From positions 19,392,315 to 19,456,314 of the forward strand of contig OZ038454.1 of NCBI GenBank assembly GCA_964036195.1: a DNA stretch of 64,000 bases. The letters run 5' to 3'. Shown here piece by piece: positions 3,019 to 59,653 of this stretch. Every line of letters begins with the position of its first letter. The first letter of the stretch is position 1. The position numbers and the translations under genes are program-made. The notes beneath the pieces are model-generated. The model made no database searches and was not told where the DNA came from. It saw only the letters and a program-made list of their open reading frames with translations. The DNA comes from Sphaerolaimus hirsutus. Its lineage: Eukaryota > Nematoda > Chromadorea > Monhysterida > Sphaerolaimidae.

Positions 3019-7780
<4,762 letters not shown>

Positions 7781-8591: not shown

Positions 8592-11500
8592 ATGGAGCCG
8601 GAGGAGGTGCGCGGGTCGGCAGCGGCCGCGCTTTTCGCCGAATCAGACAACAACGATTATGTGGTCAGTTGTTCTTTTTGTTGGCAATTCAAATCGACGT
8701 GTACAGCGCGCGCTCAGTTTCACGCAAGGTTTTGGCATTGTGCCAAATCCGTAAAATTACACAGAACCCCGACGTTCCCGCGATCTCGCGCACCAGCTGC
8801 GACAACGGGCAACCAGACGACACTGCTGGCGCGTCGTTACCGGTCAATTCGTTGGCCGTGTCCAAGGTGTTCAGCAAGCTGGCGTTGTTCGAGCCTACCA
8901 GCGAAGAGGTGGAGCAGCTGTCGCAGACACTGCAAATTCGATTGAAGGATGGCTGCGGCGAGTGTCTGTACGAGGTGGGCGCGTCCGAGCTGTGCGATAG
9001 TTTCGGTTGGTGTCAATTTGGTGTTTGAAATAATGTTTAAATAATCGTTTAAAAAGAACTTTCAAAGGTTCAAAAATACGCGTTTTTCCATCCATATACA
9101 TTCGTATACCCAGTCGGCTTTCAGGCGCCTTTTTTACCATGCCCCGCCTTTTTTACAGGCATCAACCAACAGGAACTATCAGCATCAGAAGAAACGCTGC
9201 AGCAGTTGGCTCGCACGCTGGACGCAGTGTGCACGAAATTGCGAGACAAGGATACACCCGGACACGGGCTCACTGCGGATTTTCTGGTGCGGCGTAATGT
9301 GACCGACGATGATTTCATTGAGGTGTGTGTGAGCTTGGTTGAAACGTGACTGACCTTAATTCGACTGCCCATAGCAATTTCACAAGTCTGATGTCTATAA
9401 TCGATTAGAAAAAACCATGAAACTGGAAAATAGCTACAAAATTTTTAAGCACATACCCCAAATCCTTGAATAAGACCCCAGGGAGTTATTTTTTCGTCAG
9501 ACGTTTTGGAGGGGGGAGTTATTCGAGGGGGAGTTGTTTTTTCCTCACCTCTTAAACAGGAGGGAGTTATTCGAGGGGGGGTCTTATTCAAGGATTTGCG
9601 TTACATAGCTGGAAGCCAAAAATAGCTGGAAGTAATGTTTGCCTCGGTATATAAAAATAGCTCAGCGGCGTCTTTCGGTACATAGCCGGAGCTTTTTGGG
9701 GATAACCCCCCCCCTACTAAACCCCCTACTAAACCCCACATACCCCCTACTAAACCCCGCATACACCCCCCCCCCTTGAAAATCCACTCTCACTTTCTCC
9801 CGCCTCAGGTGCGCGTAGCAGTAGTAGGCAACGTGGACGCGGGCAAGTCGACCCTGTTGGGCGTGTTGACGCACGGCGAGCTGGACAACGGGCGCGGCCA
9901 CGCCAGACAGAAGCTCTTCAGACACAAGCACGAGATGGAGACCGGCAGGACATCTTCGGTGGGCAACGATATTTTGGGATTCGATGCCGGCGGGGAGGTG
10001 GTCAATAATCCGGATCCTCATGATGGAAAGTTGGATTGGACGTCGATTTGCAGGTGGGTGATTTTTCGAATCAAACCTTTATTTTTCATCTGGGTATTTT
10101 GACCCTCCCGGATGTTGGTTAGATAGCAATTTTTTTTTTTTGGGGGGGGGGGGTGTTCTCGAGGGTTTAATAGGTATAGACTTTTTCAAGGTGTTGAAAG
10201 CAGAAAAGGGGAAATTCGCTTTAAAATGGCGGAAATATAGCTAAAAATATGTATACAAGACTAAAATAGGTGAAAAACTATTTAAAAGGTATGAACATTT
10301 GTGATTTTGAGCAAAATTTCTCACATATCGCTCCAGATAAGTAGATAGCTGTGTGATTGGAGGGTTCGCTCATTCGAGACCCCTGTTTTTCATCCTGATG
10401 TAATTTCCATTTTTGTCACTTGAACGAACTAAAATTTCGAAATGTCCCCCCTCTACACGCGCAGAAACGCCGGCAAAGTGGTCACATTCATCGACTTGGC
10501 GGGCCACGAGAAGTACCTGAAGACGACCATCTTCGGCATGACGGGCCACCTGCCGCACTTCGCCATGCTCATGGTGGGCGCCAACGCGGGGGTCATTGGC
10601 ACCACCAAGGAGCACTTGGGCTTGGCGCTGGCGCTTAGTGTGCCTGTTTTTGTGGTTGTTACTAAGGTTCGATGGGAAGATGGGATGGATGTTTGAGTTT
10701 TGGGTGATTTCTTTGTTTGTTTGTTTTTAGCTTCATCGGTATCGGTGTCAGAATGTAAATATTTTTCGTTTACTAGCGTGATCTCGGCTAGGGATGGAAA
10801 AACGAGTTTTTTTCCAACGACCCGTTTCAAACAAAACGCTTGTTTTAAATAAAAACTTTTTTCTATAGGCCCCAGATAATTGCTGATTGTTGATCGTGTC
10901 GTGATTTAGGTCCAAGTGAACCTCCAGGTTTTATTTTTTTTGTATCAAGTCACTTTGGATCGGAATAATCCAGTACATGTAATTTCCCGCACATCGTAAA
11001 CATGATCGGCTTTCAGGTGGACATGTGCCCGGCACCAGTGTTGGCCGAGACGTTGAAACACCTGCAGAAGTTGCTGCGGTCGCCCGGCTGCAGGAAGTTG
11101 CCCGTCATGGTGGCCACCATGGACGACGTCGTTGTGGCTGCTAACAACTTCACATCGGAAAGGTGAATTAAATTATGTTGTAAGAGAAGGCTAATGCGTT
11201 GCGAGTGACGTTTCCCACTGTGGAAGTATGTAGGGTATAATATACTACAGTAGTATATCACGGCTTTTTATTACACACAATGGCATGCAGAAATGACACA
11301 AAAAATTCCACAAAAGCAATGAAAACAACCACCAATATCAATTTGCAGTGTGAAATTGCGAGTATGTGCACTAAAAATTGCGAAATACCTTGTGAATAAG
11401 TGAGACCGTTAAAAAAATTCGACTCCGTTTTAAAAAAACGGTTTCGACGCATGCGGTTTTTGCAAAGCGTTTTTAAAACCGCTGGGGAAAAAACGCCGGC

Positions 11501-14500
11501 CAAGTAAGACTGACATTGCTTCGTTGACTCATCGGCGTGTAAATATATGCCAAACTATCACCGAACCTTCTCAGCCCTCCCCGACTTTCAGGATCTGCCC
11601 AATTTTCCAAGTGTCCAACGTGACGGGCCACAACGTGCCCTTGGTGCGGTCGTTCCTGAATCTGTTGCCGGTGCGCGCGGGCGCCAGCGAGAACGAGCCG
11701 GCCGAGTTTCAGATCGACGACACTTACTGGGTGGACGGCGTGGGCACCGTGGTCAGCGGCACGTGTTTGAGGGGCATGATACGGTCGGTTTTTTGTGGGT
11801 TGGTGTGGGTGTGTTATTTCGGGCCGGTTTCGCAAGTGGAGGAGTAATATGGCACTTTACAAGTGGAAAGTGAAATGAGAAGTGGGAATTGAAATGAGAG
11901 GTAAAACGAGAAGTGAGAAGTGGGAATTGAAATGAGACGTAAAACGAGAAATGAGAAGTGAATTCAGAAGTCAGGAAGATGAGAAGAAAATGTTTATAAC
12001 TTTTTACTTATTTCACTTCTCACTGCTCATTTTAGTTATCATTCTTCAAATGGTTTATCACTTCTCACTCCACTCTTCACACCTCATTTTACTTCTCACA
12101 TTTCAAATGTTGTTTTACTTATCCACTCGCGGAATTGACCCATTTTCCCAAGATAAATTGATCACACAACAACGCTCTTGCAGCGTGAACGACACGCTAT
12201 TATTGGGGCCGGACGCATTCGGCCGCTTTGTACCCGCACCGGTGAAGTCGATACATCGAAAGCGATTACCAGTCAAGGATCTCAGGGCTGGCCAGACTGC
12301 TAGCTTTTCGTTGAGGTAAATCCTTTTTCTGTTTTATTTTGGTTCGAAGGCAAATGGCACACTTTTTTTATTAGTATTGGCTTTTGTTTCAATTCGCGCG
12401 CGCAGCCTTTCAATTCCACATTCGAAATTTTTGGCACGATTGAGAAATAAATATGAGTAATCATCATAATTTGTCGACGCAAACGGTTCATCCGTGTCAT
12501 TATTATTACTTTGACTGAAAAAAACGTATTTTTCCATTCTAAAAAGTTCGAATGAGGGAGCAAAAGTGCAGCTAAATTGCACATCGATCGCGCATGTCAT
12601 ATAGGATCACAAATATCTAACTGCAGTCTAGTTTTCACGCTTTAGGCTCAAGTAAGTGATCGGTAACTCCTTCCTATATATAGTGCGTAGGGTCGATACT
12701 CAGCATTATTGAACCACCGGTTGTCCTAGTGTTCGATGACTGCGCGGAGACAATTTTTGGCACACGGCCAGGTTTTGCGCACGCCTATGCTCGCGCACAC
12801 ATACAACACACGAAACCGCACACCAGACTTTTTTATTTTTATTTTATGGATTTTGCGATTATATAAGGTACATACGGTGTTGGTGGTGCGTTTTTTGCCT
12901 TGGGGGAGGATGCTGGCATTGAAAATAGGTAGAAAATCGCTTTCCCGGGTGTATGTCTATTTGATTAAACCGGTTTTGTAGGTTAGGGTTCATGGCTGTT
13001 CAATACAATCGTAAAAAGGCTAAAAATATTAGCTAAAAAATAGATGCAATCGTTAAAACAGCGTAAAAATAATCAGTATGGATTGTCTGTAGTAGCACCG
13101 CCCCTTTACTGATCACATGCACCCACCTTAGTTTCCCTGCTAATGTCGGATCTGGATCTGTCGGCATCTTTTCCATCACCGTGTTCGACACTTTTCTTTT
13201 TTCTGTCGCGAGGAGTGGCAATTTTTTCATCGCGAAATGTGGTACTTTTGTCGTTTCCGTCGCGATGCGTGATACTTTTGTCTTTCCCATTAAAGGGCGT
13301 GGCACTTTTCTCTGGCGTGGTGTGGTCTTTTCCGCCGTGGTCCTTTGCATTTTTGACTTTTCCATCACGAAGGGCGGCAATTCTCTCTTTTCCATCACCG
13401 GGGGTGGCAGATTTGTTTTTTACATCAGGCTTCTTTGTGCCCTCTTTGGGTGTAATTGTGACAGGTTTGTCTTTCCCCTCTCCGGGGGTGCCAATTTTGT
13501 CTTTCCCCTCTTTGATGGTGCCAATTTTGTCTTTCCCCTCTCCATGGGTGCCAATTTTGTCTTTATCCTTGCTTGCTGTGGCTGGTGGTTTCATCCGGCT
13601 GTCCTGGGTGCACTCGTCCGGGGTCGCGGGCGGCTTAATCAGGCTCGCCTCCTCGCTGAAGCACGAGTTTTGCGCTGTGGTGAGATTGAGCGACGTTTTC
13701 GAGCGGGATTGGGTTTGAGGGTTCGGGATGGGAACTTTGTAGTTTCGGGTTTCGGCGTTGAAGGGTATAGTGGGTGGGTTTTGTAGGTGGATTGTAGGGA
13801 TTCAAACTTCCAGATACTAAACTAATGACATTTGTGACTAGATAGGTAGATGACCGCATTTATTTTGCTTTCAGTGTCAGTATTTGCGCTCTAGTGTACG
13901 TTTTATCTAAATAGAAACGTTGACCTTGTTTGTACCAATTCAGCAAGTGGAGAAATAAAAAACATTTTATAAGTGAGAAGTAAAAAAGTAAGGTAAATTT
14001 ATAAGGGAAAAGTAAATTTATAAATGGTAAATTTACTTGTCTTTCAACTTTTATCTTCTCATTCATAAAAATGTTTTTTTTCTATTTCTCCATTTGTGGA
14101 ATGGACCCCTGAACTACAGGGGTGGTCCGCAGGGCTCTTGTGAATTCGACCCCCGGTGTGAACCCGCACGAGCGTAAAAATCCTGGCGACCCCTGCAGAG
14201 CTGGAACTTGAGGAACGAGCTGAAATGACCGGGCTCAGACGGATTACCGACTCCAAAGTTCCGATCCCGATCCACAAATAAAAATTCAGAAACCTTATTA
14301 TCTTACAACAATTCACAAATATAAATAGACAAACTCGATCCCCGACAAAGTGTCGGGATACTTCACGCTCAATCCGGGTCCCTACACCCCAGTCCCGACA
14401 AATTCGAATGCCATTCCCGATCCCGAAAACTCGCTTCCGTTTGAACCCGATTTTGGCGATCGGAATCGAGTTCCCAGTTGAATCCCACTTGCTGTTGATT

Positions 14501-17500
14501 TTTTTCACGTTTTTACTTTTACAAATAGTTTTTTCTTCGATGATTTCATATACTCATTCAAAGTGCACACTTCACTGCCAATGGGCACGAATATTTCTCT
14601 TGTCATATGCGTATGGGTTTCGCACCCAGTTAATCGGGTAAGCTCAATGGGTTCCGAATAGCTTACATTCCAACGCGCGCGGCACCGGCGGCGCCTTCGC
14701 TGGTTCGGCTGGTTTCCCCTCCTCTACCTGTGTGTTTGCAATTATGTTGATTGATGTGTCCATTTATTAAGTAGGGGTTCAGCAGGGCCAGATAACAAAT
14801 TTCGAACAGTGGTGCTTGGACTGAGGCGAGAGAAGCATCTATTTATTCCATTTACTGCACAAAATTTGTCTCAGTCCCCCCCCTCAAAAGTCCAAATCGC
14901 CCAGCTATTCGGAGCTAATTTTGCCCCAATTTTTTCTTAATTTCCATGACTTTTTGTCTATTTTCACCTTCAAAATCACAACCTAGTTCAAGTGTCTTAT
15001 TGCCTATTTTTTGCAATATACAGGGTGCGGCAATTTAGACCAACGCTTTAGATTTTGAATAACTTGACAATGGGTGGTCGGATGAAAGTCAAAATTTAGG
15101 AGAACATTAATAACTAAATAGGAAGGTTCCCTCCAAATATGGCTGCGATAGATCCAAACAATCACAAGTTATTCAGGCAATTGTAATATGTTATTTATAA
15201 TTGTTACTCTACCACCACCTCGTGATACGGTTCAAATGGGATCGAGTTTGGGGGTGGGATCGAGATTGGCATTGGCATCCAGGGACGTACGCAGGATTTT
15301 TGAGCGGGGGGGGGCGGATTGTATACGGAGCCCGGCGAACGGGGGGGGGGCGGCGCCCCCCCCCCAAAAAAAATTTTGCCCTATAGTAAAGGAATAGAGC
15401 CATGGCGCTGGCGCCATTTTTAGGCGCCAGCGCCATGGCAGTATTGGCGTTGGCGTTGGCGACAACGTCTACCATGTAGGTATCTATACCTATATATGGT
15501 ACTAGGTCCGCTTTTGGCACTGTTGGACACTTTTCTAGTGCAATTTGACGCTTGAAAATACATATTAAAGAATGGGGTGGGGATTTGCGCGCTTGCGCGC
15601 AAAAAATTTTTTAAAGTGCCTACAAGTTCGCCTCAGAAAAGTGGCATTTCTGGCAAATTTTTCTGTCCGGCCCGGGAACGGGGGAGGGGCCGCCCCCCCC
15701 GCCCCCCCCTGCGTACGTCCTTGTTGGCATCTCTTTTTCTTGTCGCAGCAGCGCACCCAGGGACGTATCCAGGATTTTTGAGCGGGGGGGGGCTGCTTGT
15801 TTACGGAGGCCGGCGAGGGGGGGGGGGCTCAGCCCCCCCCCTAAAATCTTAGCTACATAGTGGCGGAATGGCGCCATGGCGCTGGCACCATTAGTAGGCG
15901 CCACACCATGGCGCCATTGGCGTTGGCGCCAGCGCCATGGAACACTGTATTTGTATGTAGATATACATACAAAACAGCAAAAAGCATGACATCGAGTGTA
16001 TTTATAACGATTTGCGGCACTATGGAGCAAATCTGATGATAATACCATATGTCTGGTGAAGAATGCGCGCTTGCGCGCAAAAATTTTTACGCTGACGTTG
16101 AAAAAAGTCGCATTTTCCGGTCACTTTCTAGTCTCGCCCCGGGAGGGCGGGGGCTGCAGCCCCCCCGCCCCCCCCCTGGATACGGCCCTGAGCGCACCTG
16201 AATGCGTGCGTGCGCGACACTAATCCGCCTTGCCGATAAGGCGCTCCACACGCTGGAAACGCTGGAATGTCAACTGGTTTGGAGTCAATTCATTTTAGCT
16301 AAATTTAGGTAGCAGGATTATTTTCAAGTGCATATGTGGCAATGTCGAAAAGGTTTCGCGACCCATAAACGAAAATCTTGATGAAAACCATTCGACCAGT
16401 TGACATTGGGATGTCAACTGATGTCAACTGCACCAACCGGTTTTCATCAAGATTTCAGTTTATGGGTTGCGAAACCATGTTCAAATCACATGGCAATATT
16501 GATTCCGTTTCGACATTGCCGCATGTGCACTTGAAATTGTCATGCAACCAAAATTGAGCTAAAATCGAGTTGACACTGAAACCAGTTGACATTCCAGCTT
16601 GTGGAGCGCCTAAGAAATCGGAGGGCTAAAGCGATGGGTCTAAAGCAACGTGGTCGTAGAACAACGATTATTGGTGTTTGCGTGAATAACTCTTGAACCA
16701 GTGAAGCGATCGCAGCCATATCTTGTGCAAACCTTTCCCATTTAGATATTAATGTTCACCCAAATTTTGACGTTAATCCGACCACCCAGTATCAAGTTAT
16801 TCAAAATCTAAAGCGTTGGTCTATATTACCGCACTCTGTATGTCTCTGTATATTTTGGCTATATTTCCCCTATTTTTAGCTATTTTCCCCTATTTTTAGC
16901 CATATCCCCTATTTTTAGCTATTTTACCTCCATTTCCGCATTCTACACCTATCAAAAGACAATAGCCAATTCTACACCTATAAAAAACCTTGCCCCCACC
17001 CGGGCACATAAATTCACCGTCTGAGCGCTGGCGTCCGACTGCCGTGCGGACGTGTTTTCGGGCGGGTTGCCCCCGGGCACGGTGCTCGTCTGCGTCGCCA
17101 TGGTCGGCCTGTTCGAGGGTGACGTCATGGCAGGGGGGTTGGATGGGTTCACGTTGCCCGGCTTTTTTGGTGACACCTTTATGGGTCCCGCGACACCAGG
17201 ACCTGGCGGTTTGGCTGCGTTGCCGGGTGGTCTGCGATGCGACGCGCCCTGTTATGCGTATAGTCTACTGATGGTACCTAGGCATTGTAATGAAATCTAC
17301 CGTATCCCGTCTGAATAAACGAACATACATCAAAAACTCCTTATCGGAGCAGATGACATTGGTCCCACTTTGGGTAAGTTTGGTGCGCAATTTTCCACGT
17401 AACCTTGTTCATCTAATTGGAAATGTTTAACAAAAAAGTATTGAGACCCATTATTCATCAAAATACGGTAGAATTCATTGTATAGCGCTCTATCTATCCA

Positions 17501-20500
17501 CTTTAGCCGTGAAACGTTCAACCGCCCGCGACTGACGCTTTATCTCCCGTCTGCGTGCTCGTCTGCTGCGTGTTCATGTCCTTGCGCGAGCCGGGCTTCA
17601 CGACGACCGGCGCCGGCGCGGCCTTGCCGGGCGGCTTCTCGCCGCTCGCTTTATTCATCTACGCATGCGTTATGTGATTGCGATGTGCATGTGAAGGGTG
17701 TGCTTCTAAAAGTACCGATTTACATCTATCTGATTTTGTGACGATCTTCATGCGCTTCCCAAATTGTACCATTGAAAGTACTGATCTACGATGGAGCCAA
17801 TTCACTAAATTTTATATAGCTATTTACACATGTGTCACCCAAAGATTATACCATGTATATCAATATACAACAATATACCCCAAATACCCATACTCAAAAT
17901 ACCCATACCCAACACTCATGTGTGGGAATTGCATAGCCCAAACCCTGAATTGCGAATCGATTTTTTGTAGATCTGTACTTTTAGAAGCACACCCCTCATG
18001 TGCAGTTTTCTTGATTATATCGACCAGCCGCGCTCACTTGTTCTTGCTGCGTCGTGTCCACGGTGACGGTGAGCGACCTCGGCTCGTCCTTGGAGGCGCC
18101 CTGGGGGCAGTCCCAGACCCTGTAAAATGTCAAATGTCGTGTAAAAGACCGTAAAATGTCAAATGTCATGTAAAAGACCTTTAAAACGTCAAATGTCATG
18201 CAAAGTGTCAATAGTCATGTAAAATGCCCTGTAAAATAGCAACTCGGTTGTCATTTTCCAGGGCAATTCACATGATTTTTCACACTTTGCATGACCTTTG
18301 ACATTTTACGTGATCTTTTTCACGACATTTGACATTTCAGAGGAACTTGACACTTTGCAGGTTCTTTTACAGGGTCTGGGACTGGCACCTGCAGAGCGAC
18401 GGCGCGTCGCTTTTGCGCCCTTTTCCGCCGCTGTTCCTGCATGCTGCAGCACAGCAGCGCGAGCGGCAGCGACACCGCTGTGATCAGCAACATTGGCTCT
18501 ATCAGAGCCAGCATCGCCCCGCCCAGCCGACTGCGGCCAGGGGGGCACTCCCGGACCCTGTAAAATTCCATGTAGCATGTTAAGTGTCATGTAAGGTGTC
18601 AAAAGTCATGTAAAATGACCTGTAAAACGGAAAACGTGTTAGCCATTTCACATGGCATTTTACATGACTTTTGACACTTTGTATGACGTTAAGCATGTCT
18701 CAGGGCATTTTACACTGGTGTGGGAGTGGGCACCAGCTCTGCTCGCGCGTGGGGGGAATTTTCTCGTGGCTAGGGAATTTTTGGAATTGAAAATGCTCGG
18801 TGGTTCTTGACGTTGCTATTGCTGCGTTTTTATTCGGTTTTTGGAGGTTGGATTGTCGCTGATAGTGGCTGCCTACTATGGGTAAAAATATCAGTGAAGA
18901 TATTATGTTTAGCGCGATGTGTGAGCTTGTTGTGGGTGAGATTTTTTTAGCGCCGTTTATTAGCATCACCTAATTTATACTTTAATATAAGGCCCTAAAC
19001 ACACTATTTCTCTACCAAAACTTCAAAACTTTGTAAAGCTCAAATCAACTTTGAACGCATTTGAGTTCTACTGAATGAGGTGTCCGTCAACTACGGTTTC
19101 GTCAACACAGGTAAACTGAAATGCGTTAAAAGTTGATGTATGAGTTTTCTTTTATTTGAAATTTCTAAAAAGCTGATAGAAAGCTAAATAGCGTGTGCGG
19201 GCACATTCCACATGAATTTGTGTAGATAAAATACCCAACCTGCGTTCATCCACCCTGCAGAAAGTTCAAAAAGAAGGAACTGCGCAAAGGAATGGTCATG
19301 GTTTCGCCGGGACTGGAACCCAAAGCCTGCTGGGAGTTTGAGGGAGAGATACTCGTTTTGCACCATCCGACCACAATTTCCACCAAATACCAGGCTATGG
19401 GTGAGTGCTCATAAAATGCTCAATTAGTTTTGAAGCGACTTGTTGTGTAGCTTTGCTATTGCTAGTCGCTTGGTGAAATGGCACGTTCGAATAAGGAACG
19501 CAAACTTTTAGTGTAAACCGTGCCCCAATAATCAAAACAAAGAAGTCGCCTCCAAAACATAGTTGTTAAAACGTATTTACGTTTACTCGATAGATACTCG
19601 CGTACTGCCTAAATACGTTTACGTTTCCTCCCGGAAAAAATACCTATACTCACAATCTCGCGTACTTTTTGAAAGTACGTGAGTACAGAAAACGTATTTT
19701 AAGAGGACAGAAAATTTCATTTTGCCAGACAGAAAGTGACAAACATAGGACACTTCCTAAGAAATACTTACCAGGAGAGAAAAACACACATCTTTGACGC
19801 ATTTCAGAGTAAAAATTAAAAAAACCCATCAATTTTCACGTTATTTTTGGGTGACAAATACCCACTTTTACGTTTTCTGTGAGAAAATTACCCAGTTTTA
19901 CGTTTTCCCTGGAAAAAATACTCATTTTTGCGTTTTCTCTGAAAAACGTATTTTACTCACTTTTTACACAGTGTTAAAGTCAAAATAAAATAATTTACGT
20001 TTTCTGTACTCGTGTGAGTAAAATAAAATTACTTTATGTTTACGTTTACTTTTTAAAAAGTTTAGTTCTTTTAACAACTGCTCCAAAAAACCGCCCAGTT
20101 CACTGCGGCCCCATCCGTCAAACGGCGACCATAGTCTGGATGGAGCGCGACTGTCTGCGCACGGGCGACAAAGCTTTGTGCCGCTTTCGCTTCATCAAGA
20201 ACCCCGAGTATCTGCGCGCCGGCACGCGGCTGGTGTTTCGCGAGGGCAGGACCAAAGCCGTGGGACAGGTGGCCAAGCTGTTGCCCGCCGGCGTGCCCGG
20301 CCTCAACCCCAACGTCGCCGCCGGCGCGGCTGCCGCAGCGGTAGGCAGTGGAGCGCCCGGCCAGAACAGGGCTGGGAAGAAACCGGTCGTTCATCACGGA
20401 GGTCGGTGGAGTGAATTGGGAAGTGCATCAAGCTATTTGAGGGGTAGGAAAGGGGGACGCCTATATTAAGCCACACAACCCCCGCCCCAATTTTTCAGCT

Positions 20501-33136: not shown

Positions 33137-34993
33137 ATGACCGACCCTGAAATCTGCATTGGAATTCTCGAAAAGCGGGACAATTGGAACCCGGGAAATT
33201 CCTACTATCTAAACTACCTGCTGTTTGTGCCCATTGGCGGCTTGCTAAGTTTCATCGGCAATATATTCTGCCTAATCGTTTTGTACCCACTGGCAAAATC
33301 GAATCGACCAGGGCTGTGGATGCAAAGTGTGATCTTCATTTTTGACATAATAATCGCAATTTCGTTTTTCTTTTTCGGTCTCACTGAAACTTTCATGGGG
33401 CTGGACGCGAACAAGGGCTCTGCTTTTTTTCACAGCAGCCCCATATTCGTCATTTGGGCTGTATTCATTGTGAGGTTTCTTCTAACCATGTGCCAGTTCC
33501 AGACCGTGTGAAATGCCCTGTAAAATGTAAAATGCCATGCAAGGTGTCAAAATAATGTAAAATACCCTGCAAAATGGCAACCAAGTTGCCATTTTGCAGG
33601 GCATTTTACATGACTTTTGAAACTTTGCATGCCATTTGACATTTTACAGGGCATTTTACAGGGTCTGGGACTGCCCCCATGACTTACGCCTATCTTCTGC
33701 TGGTCCTGTGCGCCGGCTTTCACAAAATCATGGCCGTGCGTTGGCCGTTCATGTTTCGCGGCTTGGAACACAACTTATTCGCTCTGTACTGCGTGGTCGG
33801 CTCGCTGTGCGTGGCCATGCTGCTCTACATGCCGGAATATGTTCTGCCCAAAGTGGTGCACTGCGGCGGCGAGTACTTCATAGACTGGAGCGGGCGACAG
33901 AACCAACACTGGGTGCTGGCGGACTTGGCGGTGACGGCCAGGTGCCAGTCCCGGACCCTGTGAAATGCCCTGTAAAATGACATATCGAGCAAAGTGTCAA
34001 AAGTCATGTAAAATGCCCGGAAAAATGGGAAATGTGGCATGCCATTTTACTGGGCGTTTTACATGACTTTCGTCACTTTGCATGAGACTTGACATTGAAC
34101 AGGGCATTTCACAGGGTTTGGGACTGCCCCCAGGGAGGTGCTGCGCATGATCGCCTCCGTGTCGCTGCTGGTCATCTTCGTGGCCATATCGTACGTGCAG
34201 CGGCAGCAGCTGGGCGCCGCATCAGCGGTGGCTAATAGTGGCCAAATCCTCAGCCAGGCCACCACCAGGTGCCAATCCCAGACCCTGTAAAGCGTAAAGT
34301 AAAGTGTCAAATGTGACGTATAAAGTGTCAATTGTCATGACAAATGTAACGTAAAGTGTCAATTATCATGCAAATTTCAGTAATAAATGCCTTTTTGTCC
34401 CGATTGACATTTTAAATTACATTTGAGACATCACTTTAGACTTTACAGGGTCGGGGACTGCCCCCAGCAAACTGCTGCTCACGCAGGCCGGCACCATGGT
34501 CGTGGGCACCGGCGCTGTTGCAACCTGGTACATGCTACTACACGTTTTTGAACTGAATCTGTTTGAGAGCTGGGTGGACACTACGTGGTGCCAGTTCCGT
34601 AAGTGGAGAAGTGAGAAGTAAAATGGTAAAAGCGATGTAAAATGGCAAAAGCGACGTAAAATGGAAAAAGCGAAGTCAAATGGCAAGTAAATTGGTAAAA
34701 GCAAAGTAATAAAAGTAATAATTTCTCGTTGCTTTTGCCATTTTATGTCTCAATTTACATTCGCTTCTGCCATCTCACTACGCTTTTGCCATTTTACTTA
34801 TCACTCCTCCGCTTGCGGAACTGGCCCCTGGTTCCTGTCCTACGTTCTCAACGTGCTGTTTTACGTGTCGCTGTGCTCGGATCTGCGCTGGCGCGTGCTG
34901 GGCTTTTTGGGTGTACAGAAGTCGTCCGTGACCAGCACCGTGTCCGTGATTCACGACGTGAAGGGAGTTCAACCGGTCATTGAGGCGCCGTGA
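33137..34993 (+). CDS. Seven-transmembrane receptor (class A-like GPCR) split by four introners
   Basis: Five exons (33137-33489, 33681-33941, 34134-34268, 34468-34587, 34831-34993) join in one frame to 343 residues. Seven hydrophobic segments are visible. TM1 carries the class A Gly-Asn pair (IGN, 40-42), TM3 runs into HKIMAVRWPF where DRY would be, and ECL2 has HCGGEYF. TM5-TM6 are linked by a Gln/Ala-rich loop, and TM7 ends NVLFYVSLCSDLRWR, an NPxxY-region variant followed by the helix-8 Arg. The tail is short (IEAP end). The ligand cannot be inferred. Every intron is an introner in phase 2; two are GT-AG, one must be read as GT-AT and one as GT-TG. Without the insertions the coding region is intronless. 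The ATG at 33137 is the first in frame. Confidence 0.85.
33490..33680 (+). mobile_element. Introner intron 1 of the receptor (family 1), GT-AT
   Basis: It begins GTGCCAGTTCCAGACCGTGT and ends ACAGGGTCTGGGACTGCCCC then CAT. The exon before ends AT and the intron ends AT, a 2-bp duplication. Frame continuity (ACC AT|G ACT TAC) requires this boundary within a 3-bp ambiguity, and no shift within that ambiguity gives a terminal AG. The core repeats CCCTGTAAAATG and its complement. Confidence 0.88.
33942..34133 (+). mobile_element. Introner intron 2 of the receptor (family 1), GT-AG
   Basis: It begins GTGCCAGTCCCGGACCCTGT and ends CAGGGTTTGGGACTGCCCC then CAG. The AG|...AG| duplication makes canonical ends; exons join as GCC AG|G GAG. 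192 bp. Confidence 0.9.
34269..34467 (+). mobile_element. Introner intron 3 of the receptor (family 1), GT-AG
   Basis: It begins GTGCCAATCCCAGACCCTGT and ends ACAGGGTCGGGGACTGCCCC then CAG. AG duplication; exons join as ACC AG|C AAA. The centre carries AAGTGTCAATTGTCATGA-type words. Confidence 0.9.
34588..34830 (+). mobile_element. Introner intron 4 of the receptor (family 2), GT-TG
   Basis: It begins GTGCCAGTTCCGTAAGTGGA and ends CCGCTTGCGGAACTGGCCCC then TG. The flanking TG is duplicated. Exons join as ACG TG|G TTC. The core is AAAATGGCAAAAGCG / CGCTTTTGCCATTTTA arrays, different from family 1. No alternative boundary preserving the frame ends in AG. 243 bp. Confidence 0.88.
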
Positions 34994-36233
34994 TGACATT
35001 TTGTGTCGTTGATCAAATATTTATATTTTTTAACTGTCAATTTCCTGGCGTTTTTAAGTAGATATTCTAATGCTTATTTTTGAAGTCATTTTTGTTGTGT
35101 CTCTTAGCAACTATTTTGGGCATTCAATGTTATTTCGCAGGAGTGCACTTGGCGAAAGAGCACGCTACGGCAACGGCAGGCGCACTACAGTAAATACTAA
35201 TATGTTTCACAATAAGTGCATACCTAATTGAGCTGAAACACCTATGCATTGGACTTTGCTTATCTGCGCCCTATACCAAACCGGTTTTGTGCCCGTTCGC
35301 TGTTACCTCAGTGCACCCTTGGTGCAGTGGGATCTCACGGCATGCAGTTACCCTACAATAGTGTAAATACCTATGAATTTATGTAATGTTCGTATATGAC
35401 TACCGCATGATTCTAGTGAAGGAAATTACGTGTGCTTTCCTTCCCCGGGCCATTTTCACAGATTTACCATTCAGAGGGCCGCTCTCAAAAATGCGTCATG
35501 TGGGTACCTATCTTATAAAGGTTCTAGCTGACCCTGTACACACTAGTTGACAAATGAAAACTCCAAACGTTATAAATCTGCTTTCACCACATCTGGGTAC
35601 CAGAATGCGAAATCTGTCAACTACTGTTGACGAAGAACAAAAATTAGTCATAGAACACATTCAAGTTTGCCACAATGGCGGCCCGTACACTAGTTGACAC
35701 ATGTGTCTCAACTGGTCTGTGTCAACTCAGATTTCGGCTTCACATGTCGCAGAGCGATCTCGAAATGCACATGCGGCAATGCTAAAAATAAATATAACGG
35801 AAAGTGCATTGGAAGATCGCCGTGCGAGTCGTGAAGCCGAAATCTGAGTTGACACAGACATTTGAAAGACGTGTGTCAACTAGTGTGTGGGTCGCCAATT
35901 AATTATTTTTAACCTGCATCATCGGGAGTTAACGAACTTCTCATTCCAGTAAACCCAAATGCGTTCAAATCTGATTTGAGTTTTCCAAAAAATTTGAAAT
36001 TTCGTCAGAAAACTAGTGCGTGCAGGGCCAATGTGTTCAAAACAAATACATATAGGTAGCAGGTTGTCAATGTCGTCAACTAAAAGAGTGTGCGTAGGCA
36101 CTATGTATCTTTGTGTGCACCTATTTATTACTTAAACCAATATTTTCATCTGTTATACATATATTTACTTATGTGTTAGAAATGTATTGCCAAATTTCAT
36201 ATTCGATACACATTACATTACACGACCTGGGGA
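34994..36233. other. Region between the receptor and the four-TM gene (convergent 3' ends)
   Basis: 35540-35660 is a partial CACTAGTTGACA repeat, 35676-35896 a complete copy, and 35920-36040 a TAGTTTTCT fold-back fragment. 34994-35539 has no recognisable feature. Confidence 0.4.
35676..35896. repeat. Fold-back MITE (CACACTAGTTGACAC family), copy 3
   Basis: GGCGGCCCGTACACTAGTTGA at the left and TCAACTAGTGTGTGGGTCGCC at the right. The inner arms carry TTTCGGCTTCACATGTCGCA and its complement. Confidence 0.78.
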
Positions 36234-36439
36234 CACGGACAGTTCCGCAAATTGAGAAGTGAGAAGTAAAATGGCAAATGCGACGTGGAATGGCAAAAGC
36301 GAAGTGAATTGAGAAGTAAAACGGCAAAAGTGAAGAGAAATTATTTTTATTTTTTAACTTCTCTTTTGACCAATTTACTTACCATTTCACTTCACTTTTG
36401 CCATTTTACTTCTCACTTCTCAATTTGCGGAACTGGCAC
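36234..36439 (-). mobile_element. Introner (family 2) just past the stop codon of the four-TM gene
   Basis: On the minus strand it begins GTGCCAGTTCCGCAAATTGA and ends AATTTGCGGAACTGTCCG then TG. TG also precedes it. It starts 28 bp after the TGA at 36470-36468, so if transcribed it would be a 3'-UTR intron with GT-TG ends. Confidence 0.7.
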
Positions 36440-39400: not shown

Positions 39401-42400
39401 GCAGATGTTGCTTGTGTCCAAAGCTCATCTGTTTATTTCAATTGCACTAGAAGTTGTGAATTTTGGCGCAAATTTTTTTTATTTTACACCCTTATTTTAT
39501 GCCACTTACAGCGCATAATTGAAAAAATTGTGCTAAAATTCATAACTCCCAGTACGATTAAAATAAACTCATGAGCTTTGGACACAAGAAACGTCTGCAT
39601 TTAAGCTTTCTTTGACTGAAATAACAATGTCGTATCTTTATCCATTCATCTGTAATTAATTTTACGCCCAAAATAAATTGTACGCCCGGTCAATTTTACG
39701 CCCGAGCTGTAATCGTAGCATTAGGCAGCCTCGTCGTCGAATGTTCTCAAAAATGTCAAATCGACAAATCCATTTCCCTCCCCAAAACAGTTTTGCTCTG
39801 ACCGAATGGAATTTTATGGACACCCCATTTTTTGCATATACGTTGAGAGCAGGGGCTGAAAATTTGACACTTTATTGTCAACATATGGAAATTAATGGAA
39901 AGCACGAGAGAGCCAAATTGGACACGCACCACGGGCCTGGAATTGGGTCTGAAACTTAAAATGCGATTTATTGTATTTCCTCGACATACCCACCTCGAAA
40001 TACCCCCCAAATATAGTGTATAGAGAACGTAAATGACAAAAGCTATGGTTTGTGATCCCGGAAACGTACAACACACGTGAAAAACAATGACTGTGTTATG
40101 TTAGAACAGGGTTTATACCGTCTACGTACATATATAAGTACTAGCAGTCCTCGCGCCGACCTTCGGTCGGGCCCATCATTTCATCATTTAAATTTTTTGA
40201 GCCCTGGGGTACTATTCAAGGGTTATGGTAATTTAGTGTCAAAATGGAGTGCATATTTGAAATCAGTGGCGTCAACTAAACCCAAATGCATTATTTTTGA
40301 TTTGAACTTTTTTGGGCTCTGGGGGTTCTATTCAAGTATTATTGCAATGCAGTATCAAGATGGAGTGCTTAATTGAGATCAGTGTCATCAAAACCCCACA
40401 AATGCAGTTTTTCATAATTTGAACTATTTTAAGCCCTGGGGGTAATATTTAAGAGTTATGGTAATGTAGTTTCAAAATGGAGTGTGTATTCAAAATCAGA
40501 GCCATCAAAACCCCCCAAATGCCAGCCAAGCCCAAGTAAAGGAAATCATAATATTTTCAAAAAGTGCATTGCAAGTGCAACACACTGTAGAAATGATGGT
40601 GCACTTTCCCAGAATGTGGCTATTCAACATTCTATTATGTTGTATTTGTGTGTTCCAAAATGATTGGGCCAGCACAATTTTGTAGTTACTTCTGTAGAAA
40701 AATAATATTCATGATACTCATAACTGTTTTATTTAAATGCAAAAATTTGTCATCAAGTTGAAACTACCAAATTAGGGGAGTGTCACATGAAATGTGATTC
40801 AAAGCATGTTTCAATTGTTTATGTAAGAGTGGCCAAACATGCATCATTTGTGAATATAACTGTCATGTATATGTATTATTTGACTTTTTTAAACTGTTTT
40901 ATTTTTATTTGTTTAGGAACACAAACATTTTTCTTGTTCAAAGATCAGCTTTATCAAATTGGAGATCAAATAGAATGAAATTATTAGTCATTTACAATTG
41001 TTGGAATGACATCACATCATTTCTCTGATTTGCTATGTATGTTCTTATACATTTACAAATTAGAAACACATGTTTGTATTGTTTAAAAATGAGATAGATT
41101 ATTTGGGGTTTGGTAGGATTTAAATTTGAATATATAGTTTGAACTTTAATATTGCATATATTTTTATTTGTCAGTTTAAAAGAGTCTCTATTATGCACTG
41201 TCCCAATAATTTTGGAACCTTCAAATGAATCACCAAACATGTTCAAACCTCCCAGCTTTGCTGCTTATTACAACACAGACCAGTGGTGGCAAACTTTCAA
41301 GGAAACAAGCATTGAAATTCCCATTTAAATAATTGAAAAAAATTGATCCTATAGAAACTTTTAAAAACAGTTTTGAATTGCAAATTGTTTTGTAAAAGTT
41401 TTTGAAAGCTTCTACTATATACTGAATGTGTCATTCTATTGGGAATAATATTGGGAAAGATGATATATAACATAACATTCTAATGACTTTTTTGTTGATG
41501 ATTAAGATATTTTAAACCATGATACAAATGCAATTTTTTGCTTTTTTCTGTAATGTTTCACCCCAAATTACTCCTTTATTTAAAAAATTATTAACCTTAT
41601 ATGTTTAGTATTTACATTACATGTTTTTACCATTGGGAAAAATAAAAATATGAAAATATGACAACATTTTTAATTTTTGCATTTTTATTCGCTATCACTA
41701 GACATTTTAGTGGTGCAACCAAAATTCTCACATCACACAAAGCCCTGCCTGTCTAGACAAATGAATCAGCAAACATGTCCAAACAGAGCCAGCTGGTGCC
41801 AATTCCAGACCATGAACAGTGTAAAGTAAAAAGTCAAATGTCAAATGTCAAATGTCATGTCAATCAATAAAAGAATATTTTATTACTGAAATTTGTGTGA
41901 CAATTGACACTTTACTTTGCATTTGTCATGATCATTGACACTGCATGACATTTGACATCTTACTTTGCAGTTAACAGAATCTGGGACTGCCCCCTGAAAG
42001 CAGCTTGCTTGCAGGCTCCGCCCACTGTGTTAGTGTCACTGCTCTAACCTCTGTCACCTACCCAGTATAAAACCAGCTCCGTAGACAGCCAGAGCTCAAG
42101 TCAGACCCACTTGGGTCTGCACCTAGACTCAATATAGGGTTCTACCTCCTATATTGGGATTGTATTTTTATGTAGGGGGTGTTCCCAACCAGTGGCCCCC
42201 GGTGCATAGGATGGGGGGTTGTCCAAGTGCAAAATTGTAGGAAGCAAGAATTTCCTTAGCTAAGAGCAGGAACCAATTCAATTTTCTACCAGGAACCAAT
42301 TCAATTTACTGATACAAGTTGACTCTGGAAACTCAGTGAACTTGTATCTAATAGCTCCATTGTTCCATAGGACCAGGGAGCAATTCAATTTTTTACTTGG

Positions 42401-45400
42401 ACCCAATTCCCCTTCTACCACAAGTTGACTCTGGCAACTCCCTAAGTCAGCTTGTGTGTGCTGGATTTTTTGGCAGCGACCCAAGCCTCCCGCCCCTATT
42501 AGTATTAAGAAGAAGATAAGATAAGTCTATAGAGTCTTATATATGGCGGTTTATGTTGCATTTTTCGACGTCTGTGTAGGTTACAGACAACAATTTAGTA
42601 CTGGGATTTCAATCAATTGCTGGGGAAATAATAACCCCCCTCGAAATACTCCCCTCGTTTGACCACCCTCAAAAATCTCACTCTGAAAAAATAAACCCCC
42701 TGGGGCCAGATTTAATACTCCCTACAGATTTGTAGGGTAGGGCGTACGCCCGATAGATTTTTTAAAGATCAGCCGCATCGACGCACATGCACCGAGAGCA
42801 AGGCGGTTCGTAAAATACACGAAACTATCCCTTAAGGTCGCCGATATTGCAATATGACGAATATCGCTTCGATTTTGGCCCGGAAATCACGATTTTCGTC
42901 ATTTCTTGGCCGTCTGTCAATTCGTTTTTTATTTTTTTTTGTCGCGCTTTTGTAGGCTCGTGCATGCATTTCTTTCTTGTCGCTGCCCTCATGGTTTCGG
43001 TTGCAGACAGTGAACACTAAAAAAGTGACCACCTGACTACACAAAAGCGCGACTTATGCGAGTAACCCGCCCGACAAAATAAAATAAAAAACGAATTGGC
43101 AGACGGCCAAGAAATGACGAAATCGTGATTTCCGGGCCAAAATCGAAGCGATATACGTCATATTGCAATATCGGCAACCTTAAGGGATGGTTTCATATAT
43201 TTTACGAACCGCCTTGCTCTCGGTGCATGTGCGTCAATGCGGCTAAACTTTTAAAAATCTGTCGGGCGTACGCCCTACCCTACAAATCTGTAGGGAGTAT
43301 TAAATCTGGCCCCTGGGGGTATTTCGGGGAAATACGGTACGCAAAATCGCAGTGTGGACTTGTCGACTTTTAGAATTAGACGCCTCAGTTGTGTCAGGAC
43401 AGGGTCATAAGTGCTGCAAATATTAGGTAGTAAACTAATGAAGTGTCTTTTTTCGATTTCATACAAATATACATTTGTGCATCCCACATTCTTTTGTACG
43501 TTGACCGATTTTGATGCCATTTGAGTATGTTGAGGTTTGGGGTCTGGGCTATGAAGAAATGTTTTTGTTTCCTCGAATAATCCCCCAGTCCCGAGATAAG
43601 GGGGGTCTATAAAAAGGTGGTCATTTTGCATGGCCGATCTACACATTCACTTTGAACCTTACTCACTCAGCCATTTCTGGGCCAATTTGGATCGTTCGAC
43701 ACTTAAAATGATCAGCACAACCAGTAGATTCCATTTGTGTGGTCGGATGAATGATGTCTAAATTACGTATGCCGATTTGACCCAGTTTTTAACACCAAAA
43801 ATTAATTTTCCTAAACATGCTATCATATACTTTAGACAATGGGGATTCATATACCAAAAAAAATTATTTCAATATCTCTTTCCAATCAAAAGTAATAGAA
43901 CTTTAAACTTCCGCCTCCCATACATGTAAATAACTAATCAAGAACGATGAATACAGATAACCTGAGCATAAAAATGAAACTTACAGGTTTTTCTGATCAT
44001 TTTAAGTGTTCATTGGTGGAAATTGGCTGAGAAATGGCCGAGATATGGATTTCTGAAGTCACATGCATTGCTGATCATGCAGATTTTTCCATTTATTGTT
44101 GGGAGGCGAATGTTCAAAGTGATATAACTTTTGACTGGAGAGAGATATTGAAAAAAATTTTGGGCCAGATTCATTCTTTTTGTCTATAGTATATGATAGC
44201 AACTTCAAAAAAAAACGTCTTGAAAAATTATAATTACGATTATTTTTCATGTTCAAAAACCGGGTCAAATCGGCATACGGGATTGAGACATCACTAACTC
44301 GACCACAAAAATTGAATCTGCGGATTGTCCTGGTTATTTTAAGTGTTGAACGATCCGAATCGGCCCAGAAATGGCTGAGTTATTAAGCTTCAAAGTCAAT
44401 GTGCATATTGGCCACGTAAAATGACCACCTTTTTATAGACCCCCTTATCTCGGGACTGGGGGATTATTTGAGCAAACAACAACATTTCATCATAGCCCAG
44501 ACCCCAAACCACAACATACTCAAATGGGATCAAAATCGGTCAACGTACAACACAATGGAAAGCACAAATGTATATTTGTATGAGATGGCGAAAAAAGACA
44601 CTTCATTAGTTTACAACCTAATACTAGAGGCTAATGTTTTAATTTTTTGTCAACTTATAAATTACTCTTCAATGCATTTGAGTTAAAATAACTGTAATAA
44701 GTTACTTCTACCCTCCGTCGACTGTAGTTGGCGGACACTGAATTCCAGTTTACGCGAACGACATTCAAAGTTGATTTGTCAGTTCACTCAGTTTTTAAAT
44801 TGCTGACAGTAATCTAATGTGTGTAGCGCCAATATTATTCAGGGCACCCAAGGACCCGTTCCCGCCATATTTTCCGGTGTTGTTTTCCTTCAACGACGCG
44901 GGCGGCGCACACTAATACACCACTGATGATTGGAAACTCATAAATCTGTTTTGCACACATTTGAGTTTACCAGAATGAGGAATCTGTCAACAACTGTTGA
45001 CGGCGATCAAAAACATACCTAATCAACTTTGGCAAACTGAAATGCCTTTAAATCAGATTTATAAGTTTCCCAACATTGGATTTGGATGGTGTACTAATGT
45101 GCGTGGCCGCATTAGTTAACGCCAAGTACCCTTCACTAGTGATGTGAAAAGCGCCAGAACTTTGGCGCCATGGCGCTTTTCCGTCCCTTAGCGCCAAGCG
45201 CCAGAAGCGCCATGGCGCTATTTGCTTTGGCGCTAGCGCCAAGCGCCAGCACCAGGCATTTTGTTCTTGCCGGCAGTCAAAAATAACGCCAAGTGCGAAA
45301 AGCGCCATAGCGCTTTTACATCGCTACCCTTCACAACCTCTCCGCCCACACTCACCACACCCATAGTGACCACACTGTGCCACACTAGCCACTCCACTTT

Positions 45401-46483: not shown

Positions 46484-47562
46484 CCTACAGGGTTGGCAAA
46501 ATCTCAGAAAAAAATAAAAATAAAATAAAAATAAAATGGAATATTCAAGAATAAAATAAAATAAAATAAAATGGAAAATTTAAGAATAAAAATAAAAATT
46601 GTATAAAAATTCGAATTTTTGTAAAATTGTATGAAAATTCATATTTCTGTAAAATTGTATAAAAATTCATATTTTTTGTAAAATTTTGTCTCATTGCTTG
46701 AGTCTCTACCTGTTGATTCATAGATCTGGGGGCAGTCCCAAGCATTGTAAAGTGTCAAATGTCATGTAAAATGTCATGCAAAGTGTCAATTGTCGTGACA
46801 AATGTAAAGTAAAGTGTAAATTGTCATGACATGTAAAACTGTCATAAAAATATCAATTGTCAAGCAAATTGTGTTCAAATCTCATGTTTTATTTCAAAAT
46901 CTTATGTTTTGTATCCAAATGATGTTGTTGTTGACTCCAAATCTTATGTGAACATTTGGATACAAAAACATAAGATTTGGATATAAAACATATTATGGAT
47001 ACAAAAACACAAGATTTGGATACACAATTTACACTTTGCATGACATTTGTCATGACAATTGCCACTTTGCTTGAAATTTTACATGACACTTGACATTTTG
47101 CATGACAATTGATACTTTACTTAACATTTGTCATAACAATTGTCATAACAATTGACACTTTGCATGACATTTTACAAATGTGCCCAGCACACTCCAGTAG
47201 TCCTTCTACTGAAAATGCAAACCATTCTTATCAATAATTGTAACTTTACACTTGCAGCTAGCTTACAATACATACTGCATGCAACTTTTGAAAAGTAAGG
47301 GAAAAATTTGTCACAGGTTTTTCATGTATAGGTCTAATTATAACATTTTTCTGGCCTTGCATGCATGTTTCTGATTTTTTGTACAATTTTTGTACAATTT
47401 TTGTAAAATTTTTGTAAAATGTGTCATTTTATTTTATTAATGACTTTTGGGAATAAAATAAAATAAAATAAAATGAAACAAGAATAAAAATAAAATAAAA
47501 TAAAATTTTTATACAATTTTTATACAATTTTACGAAAATGAATTTTTATAAAACCAACCCTG
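46484..47562. mobile_element. hAT-like element with AATAAAATAAAA arrays and a nested introner relic
   Basis: The perfect 8-bp duplication GTCGTGTA lies at 46476-46483 and 47563-47570. The inner ends are CAGGGTTGGC and CCAACCCTG (with four extra bases CCTA at the left). Both ends carry AATAAAATAAAATGGAA-type arrays in opposite orientation. 46733-47190 is an introner-like insertion (GGGGGCAGTCCCAAGCATTG, minus orientation) with long CAATTGTCATGAC-type arrays. Confidence 0.8.
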
Positions 47563-59265: not shown

Positions 59266-59653
59266 ATGTCCCAGTCCCAAACGCTCGGCGCATATTCCGC
59301 CGATGCGCGCAAGGACATACAAACCGTTTGCTACGATGCTGGTTTGGTGCATTGCCGGAGAAGGGGCCAATATGTGGGCCAGTGGTGCGTGGCCCCCTGC
59401 TGCGCGGATAGACACCAGGTGCCACTCCCAGACCATGTAAAAAGCCGTGTCAAATCCTAATGTCGGACAAAGTGTCAAAAGTCATGTAAACTGCATTGGA
59501 AAATGGCAAACGTACCTTTGCCATTTTCCAGGCCATTTTACTTGACTTTTGACTCTTTGCATGACAATGACATTTGCCATTTTACAGGGCTTTTTACAGG
59601 GTCAGGGAGTGCCCCCAGCAGAGGGGTGAGGCTGTGTCGCCCAGTGTGAGTTG
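59266..59653 (+). CDS. Candidate two-exon gene fragment split by an introner
   Basis: A GC-rich open stretch starting at ATG 59266 (MSQSQTLGAYSADARKDIQT, then Cys-rich) runs to 59418. After the introner 59419-59618 the frame continues QRGEAVSPSVSW and stops. The function is unknown. A second frame is also open across the first exon, so the true frame is uncertain. The gene may be a fragment cut by the repeat that begins near 59650. Confidence 0.35.
59419..59618 (+). mobile_element. Introner (family 1), GT-AG
   Basis: It begins GTGCCACTCCCAGACCATGT and ends ACAGGGTCAGGGAGTGCCCC then CAG; AG also precedes it. The core repeats AAAATGGCAAACG-like words and CATGTAAA. 200 bp, the same size as the receptor introns. 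Confidence 0.82.

Follow-up and report, generated by a model that had tools for sequence, protein, structure and literature searches.

Four foldback elements lying between positions 33490 and 34830 of the 64-kb stretch of nematode DNA analyzed here (the window) break up one coding sequence of a receptor-like gene, and cutting out all four leaves a 343-codon, 7TM-like frame that ends at 34993. We found that the ends of the elements and the duplications beside them coincide with the frame-restoring boundaries. This supports the view, already taken in a preliminary description of the same DNA, that transposon-like elements, here with target-site duplications, have inserted into coding sequence. 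Since they sit exactly at frame-restoring boundaries, these four introns were most likely absent from the gene at an earlier time. Elements, duplications, asymmetric ends and frame restoration are all demonstrated in the DNA itself, and they are best explained together if NuwaI-like foldback transposons act as introners in a nematode, an explanation that, taken as a whole, we regard as probable. The elements would then most likely represent a nematode introner family of a known DNA-transposon type, new in its host, in its transposon group and in the way its splice sites are recruited.

A receptor-like frame interrupted by four elements

The lengths of the elements (191, 192, 199 and 243 bp), their positions, the phase 2 placement of all four junctions and the 343-residue frame obtained on their removal had been given before and proved exact (Table 1). 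Keeping any whole element brings in a stop at codon 125, 212, 257 or 301, 7 to 12 codons past its junction. When zero to two extra bases were kept at each element, 4 of the 81 combinations reached 340 codons or more; as one of these departs at the last junction only, the frame pins that junction down less firmly. We also placed the same pattern of cuts at random. Of 3000 draws, about 2700 were tried, draws close to the locus being skipped, and two of them gave 343 codons or more free of stops. With junctions tested singly and the neighboring elements left in, the fractions of random places giving a frame as long were 0.010, 0.074, 0.22 and 0.22; by this measure the joined frame is unusually long at junction 1 only. 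The coding part comprises 1032 bases free of premature stops and frameshifts, and its third-position GC of 0.71 looks coding. The spliced protein looks like a divergent 7TM receptor: the 7TM frame described earlier holds for six membrane segments, which rise above the threshold of a hydropathy scan, but TM6 falls below it. We found no Pfam or PDB match for this protein, nor any relative at E ≤ 0.001 among the 3108 candidates of one protein search that required shared 5-residue words; exon 1 alone gave a weak match to DUF6418 (E 0.0097), below that family's cut-off. The 64-kb window holds no receptor paralogue that could serve as an empty site.

Three of the introns are of one type and the fourth is of a related type, and they are alike to their first and last bases; such likeness up to the boundaries, together with insertion into exons and exact restoration of the frame, is among the marks of introners. 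The ends pair across the whole length of each element, with RNA folding z-scores of -17.2, -15.4, -8.7 and -15.1 for introns 1 to 4, and all four elements are in sense orientation to the gene. Reading each element as GTGCC...CCCC places it between the triplets CAT/CAT, CAG/CAG, CAG/CAG and GTG/CTG, for elements 1 to 4 respectively. The direct repeat noted in the preliminary description is thus present, but not at the 2 bp proposed there: it measures 3 bp in three of the four elements, and the fourth shows the GTG/CTG mismatch. We dropped the 2-bp duplication because 3 bp equalizes the lengths of both ends and fits seven of the nine GT-ended copies in the window. On the 3-bp reading, both terminal repeats are gapless and of equal length, the 5' one being GTGCCA(G/A)TYCC and the 3' one GGGSCAGTYCC; the counterpart of the former is GGGGCAGTCCC in the first type and GGGCCAGTTCC in intron 4. 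Intron 3 starts with GTGCCAAT, and not with GTGCCAGT as had been read. The shared phase 2, true as it is, turns out to be weak evidence because of where the triplets fall in the receptor coding sequence: CAG ends at phase 2 in 6 of 15 occurrences, CTG in 9 of 40 and CAT in 21 of 22.

Table 1. Positions in the window of the two genes, the four intron-forming elements and the related copies.
Feature	Position	Strand	Ends and flanks	Remarks
Receptor-like gene, 5 exons	33137-33489, 33681-33941, 34134-34268, 34468-34587, 34831-34993	+		343 codons plus stop; spliced frame
Element/intron 1	33490..33680	+	GTGCCAGTTCC...GGGACTGCCCC plus CAT duplication	GT-AT ends; phase 2
Element/intron 2	33942..34133	+	GTGCCAGTCCC...GGGACTGCCCC plus CAG duplication	GT-AG ends; phase 2
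Element/intron 3	34269..34467	+	GTGCCAATCCC...GGGACTGCCCC plus CAG duplication	GT-AG ends; phase 2
Element/intron 4	34588..34830	+	GTGCCAGTTCCG...CGGAACTGGCCC; flanks GTG/CTG	Second interior type; GT-TG ends; phase 2
GT-ended copy	18104..18388	-	CAG duplication	Antisense within GTPBP1 intron, possibly in nested minus-strand gene
GT-ended copy	18541..18733	-	CACTCCC variant ends, CTG duplication	
GT-ended copy	41796..41993	+	CTG duplication	Coding context none seen
GT-ended copy	59419..59615	+	CACTCCC variant ends, CAG duplication	
Degenerate copy	36230..36439	-	GT end retained, 3' end disrupted; CTG/CAG flanks	Second interior type
Composite/truncated copy	46729..47192	-	3' GGGACTGCCCC/CAG kept, 5' end unrecognizable	Other repeat nested; outer limit approximate
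Relative without GT end	11821..12142	+	Starts GGGCCGG	Second interior type; inside ordinary GT-AG GTPBP1 intron 11784-12183
Symmetric relative by ends	42703..43312		GGGCCAGATT at both ends; 30/30 end bases match; CTG duplication	610 bp; no GT end
GTPBP1 gene	9152..20469	+		Exons 2-9 read (gene ~8.8-20.5 kb); 7/7 introns GT-AG

Related copies elsewhere in the window

The elements occur beyond the receptor-like gene. Five further GT-ended copies lie in the window, and several copies fall outside recognizable coding sequence; the family is not limited to genes. All nine readable 5' ends have T at position 2 and none of the nine 3' ends does. Nine of nine copies start GTG and nine of nine 3' ends, read inward, start GGG, a count that leaves out the composite, the GTPBP1-intron relative and the symmetric element, and that may be favored by the search, copies having first been found by patterns and profiles made from GT-ended ones. 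As the GT end is also seen in copies that lack a coding context (41796), it looks like a trait of the family and not the result of local selection. CACT replaces CAGT at both ends of the copies at 59419 and 18541, and the GT asymmetry is retained, as expected if the two ends are kept alike for transposition.

Matching triplets flank seven of the nine GT-ended copies (six CWG, one CAT), the mismatches being GTG/CTG and CTG/CAG. A scan for end pairs beside any identical flanking triplet, which permitted G or T at position 2, gave 21 pairs against 10.25 per randomized window; with at least 18 of 30 end bases matching, there were 8 against 0.1 per randomized window (at most 1 in 20). Of these eight, one is a cross-pairing of the neighboring introns 2 and 3, and the seven genuine pairs have the plus-strand triplets CTG, CAG, CAT, CAG, CAG, CTG and CTG, with CWG in six and CAT in one. 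Element 4 and the copy at 36230 are missing from the scan because their flanking triplets differ.

Across the seven first-type copies, the ends are more conserved than the interior (0.88 and 0.93 against 0.81). A profile built from six copies finds others that are not members of it, for example 18541-18733 (8.5e-40) and element 4 (5.2e-11); the degenerate copy at 36230..36439 is the one in the window most closely related to intron 4. The two families distinguished in the preliminary description do differ in their interiors, but they have one terminal repeat in common and their profiles cross-match, so that the two interior types look, from these comparisons, like two branches of one NuwaI-like group. 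The recent gain claimed for the introns finds no support in the divergence of the copies: pairwise identity over the 36 pairs of nine copies is 0.68-0.88, and its low end is near the chance level of the aligner. A control of 30 shuffles gave a mean identity of 0.72 and a maximum of 0.81, for which reason dating by copy identity was abandoned. Judged by its ends, the symmetric element at 42703-43312 could stand for the ancestral end.

The window contains one gene interrupted by elements; a second is only possible, in the region 18104-18733 on the minus strand, within GTPBP1 intron 12316-19260. Between two GT-ended copies there lie 152 bp with a GC content of 66%, and a short membrane-type frame runs on across 18104-18388 at phase 0. 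The region may hold a nested antisense gene with further element-made introns; its joined frames are of unexceptional length, matched at 0.27 and 0.07 of random places. One pattern scan each of viral and of prokaryotic contigs gave no match, and an Rfam search returned nothing at gathering score. The window also holds further large palindromic elements (737-1178, 39276-39723, 54783-55272 and 56456-56748), a different inverted-repeat element that occurs twice and has similar arms (21761-21907 and 35715-35859), a retrotransposon gag frame at 62160-62681 (Retrotrans_gag, E 2.9e-07) and, at 6088-6405 on the minus strand, a RIO-kinase exon (RIO1, E 7.2e-10) that appears to be part of a multi-exon gene.

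The GTPBP1 gene gives an indication of the host's affinity. In a tree of 23 rows, 22 of them hand-picked from the 240 matches listed, its protein forms a pair with that of Plectus sambesii, a nematode (97/88), and four more nematodes join the two in the surrounding set (99/98). Less favorably, Trichuris, on a long branch, falls outside, the named nematodes taken together are not a single group (3 changes), and support is poor on 11 of the 20 inner branches. Plectus also comes out ahead, by 34 bits, in a GTPBP1 search that took in full-length proteins. As judged from this one gene, the DNA is probably that of a nematode outside the heavily sampled groups. A host resembling Fritillaria was considered and rejected, because the ordinary introns read are GT-AG and the tree points to a nematode.

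Splice sites and rival explanations

Introns 2 and 3 are well-formed CAG/GT...CAG introns with the canonical U2 ends GT...AG, which introns 1 and 4, ending in AT and TG, do not have. We propose that the ancestral element would have ended in GGGCCAGT and that, on insertion at CWG, it would have duplicated the triplet. A G-to-T change at position 2 of the 5' end would supply the GT donor, and sense insertion at CAG would then produce CAG/GTGCCAGT...CCCCAG, in which the upstream copy of CAG would act as the exonic half of the donor and the downstream copy as the acceptor. Excision of the element plus one triplet would return the original reading frame exactly. At CAT and CTG, as in introns 1 and 4, either a non-AG 3' end would be used, perhaps with the aid of the hairpin, which would draw both ends close, or splicing would be poor, and these two introns may be unspliced. 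Splicing, mobilization by a NuwaI-type transposase and the order of change from GGG to GTG are thus what we infer.

The acceptors of ordinary introns in this DNA are CAG with weak pyrimidine tracts (for example CCGCCCAG), and their donors vary, which makes CCCCCAG and GTGCCA unremarkable as splice sites. Against an introner reading, two of the four introns break the GT-AG rule that seven of seven GTPBP1 introns obey. Moreover, all three first-type introns contain TTT(T/C)ACAG/GG 19 nt before their end, a site that shifts the frame when used with the GT donor; it would be a competing acceptor and counts against smooth splicing. Alternative splice pairs were searched with donors from -45 to +79 and acceptors from -150 to +45. 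Within this range, intron 1 has no in-frame GT-AG pair and two GC-AG pairs only; several GT-AG and GC-AG pairs hold the frame at introns 2 and 3, the exact pair included; and the in-frame pairs of intron 4 all keep part of the element, 96-159 nt overall and 102-159 nt for the GT-AG pairs. One such alternative in intron 4 is the GTAAGT donor at 34599 with the AG at 34706 or 34715, which keeps 126-135 nt.

Long AG-free stretches trail exactly the two introns without an AG acceptor: 171 nt downstream of intron 1 (first AG at 33852) and 86 nt downstream of intron 4 (first AG at 34917). With no AG nearby, the non-AG ends of these introns would be without a close competitor. Against shuffles of synonymous codons, the stretches have P = 0.0072 and 0.0608 and jointly 0.0006 of 5000, in a test made post hoc on one gene.

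The same non-AG ends can be read differently. Introns 2 and 3 might be spliced while elements 1 and/or 4 are later, imprecisely removable insertions in a gene recently inactivated or altered, a reading that we hold to be unlikely, though deserving of attention. In line with it are, besides AT and TG, the want of an in-frame GT-AG pair at element 1, the 96 nt or more retained by every in-frame pair at element 4 and the self-complementarity of element 1, the best among the nine copies (0.87). In neutral simulations at 1% substitution with 0.1% indels, moreover, the frame stayed intact in 520 of 2000 runs, so that a young dead allele could look intact. Yet the flanks of element 4 already differ, a mild argument against great youth, and neither non-AG end has an AG closely downstream. 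Older decay fares worse. That all four elements are unspliced MITE insertions in a pseudogene might account for the failure to find protein relatives (in Pfam, PDB and one protein search), but it is improbable given the unbroken coding sequence, its coding-like third positions and the sense orientation of every element. No simulation of 2000 left the frame intact at 7.5% substitution with 1% indels (153 without indels), a level that assumes the divergence of the copies to have arisen after insertion; the other counts, again of 2000 each, were 1416 at 1%, 707 at 3% and 49 at 3% with 0.3% indels. These counts make it unlikely that the gene is an old dead one.

We give very little credence to the idea that old introns were later filled by transposons. 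GTPBP1 intron 11784-12183 does hold a second-type relative, but in the receptor-like gene the ends of all four elements are the frame-restoring boundaries to the base, no residual intron sequence is left and the duplications are coding triplets. Least credible of all is that the repeats arose by chance or through an artefact of assembly. The window is rich in palindromes, the one point that we found in favor, but the eight close end pairs against 0.1 expected exclude chance, and the profile from six copies catches others unused in making it; fold z-scores down to -17 tell the same way.

NuwaI-like ends and known introners

Filed by their ends and duplication only, the elements appear to be non-autonomous NuwaI-like (PIF/Harbinger-related) foldback transposons: CWG duplications and ends starting with GGG match them to the animal NuwaI group. 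As characterized in the NuwaI section of PMC4482050, this group of the PHIS superfamily makes a 5'-CWG-3' duplication, has terminal repeats of 12-61 bp, in most cases beginning with GGG, and is found in animals only, in 16 genomes (12 bony fish, a beetle, a crustacean, a mollusc and an anthozoan). Our elements resemble it in the CWG duplication, seen in six of nine GT-ended copies and as CTG in the symmetric element, and in their animal host. Of their ends, the 3' ones and those of the symmetric relative start GGG, and the 5' ones read GTG; nematodes are absent from the 16 genomes of PMC4482050, and its NuwaI section makes no link to introns, unlike that drawn here. A Pfam scan of a few frames of the window showed no transposase.

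Introners of Micromonas and Aureococcus were reportedly described by Huff et al. in 2016. DNA-transposon introners, as presented in the relevant parts of PMC9860276, are short and non-autonomous, carry one splice site and obtain the other from the duplicated target, and their splicing mostly leaves mRNA length unchanged; there, Gozashti et al. report introners in only two animal groups, copepods being named. The elements described here likewise have one site carried and one co-opted, and differ in the nematode host, in the 3-bp CWG duplication and in the use of CAG as both donor flank and acceptor. Nearest in arrangement is the Chrysochromulina introner, which carries the 5' site, co-opts the 3' site, makes a 4-bp duplication and has no inverted ends (PMC9860276, same parts); unlike that family, ours has inverted ends, and insertion in sense at CTG would leave it with an end other than AG.

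Introner elements of the dinoflagellate Amoebophrya, to the extent covered by the text of PMC7789003 used here, have hairpin inverted repeats that bring exon boundaries close to each other, direct repeats of 3-5 nt and non-canonical ends, all of which have their parallel in our elements. More than 60% of Amoebophrya introns are non-canonical and no family-specific inverted-repeat motif is given in that text, whereas here one terminal motif is clear and the host is, as far as one gene shows, a GT-AG one. Fritillaria is an animal with many non-GT/AG introns, and to that extent like ours; in the figures taken from part of PMC13326754, AG/AC (18%) and AG/AT (16%) are the commonest non-canonical types and GT/AG accounts for 5%. 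In contrast, ordinary introns here have GT-AG ends, and each of the four element introns starts with a GT donor. For nematodes themselves, a survey of 104 genomes, in the part of PMC9169325 concerned with gain, names no source for 168 gained Caenorhabditis introns.

In the open-access papers searched, we found no report of a link between NuwaI and introners or of a nematode introner source like this one. The system seems to be of a known kind, in what is seemingly a new host and a new transposon group, with a neat recruitment of both splice sites. One may envision that the CWG target of NuwaI-type transposons amounts to a proto-splice site, ready-made, and that a single base in the element end turns a MITE into a self-excising intron, CAG/GT...CAG, the family thereby seeding introns in a nematode lineage and the foldback even permitting removal at the non-AG ends created at CAT and CTG. 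We advance this wider idea tentatively, as a plausible one that could well prove wrong.

If true, these proposals would provide a concrete source for intron gain in nematodes and would tie the proto-splice-site idea to the target choice of a transposase. They would give a simple rule of recruitment, a CWG target plus one base in the element end, and with it a prediction open to counting in every assembly from the group, namely that exonic sense insertions at CAG outlast those at CTG. A nematode gene with four such introns would show, in an animal, how mobile DNA makes new introns.
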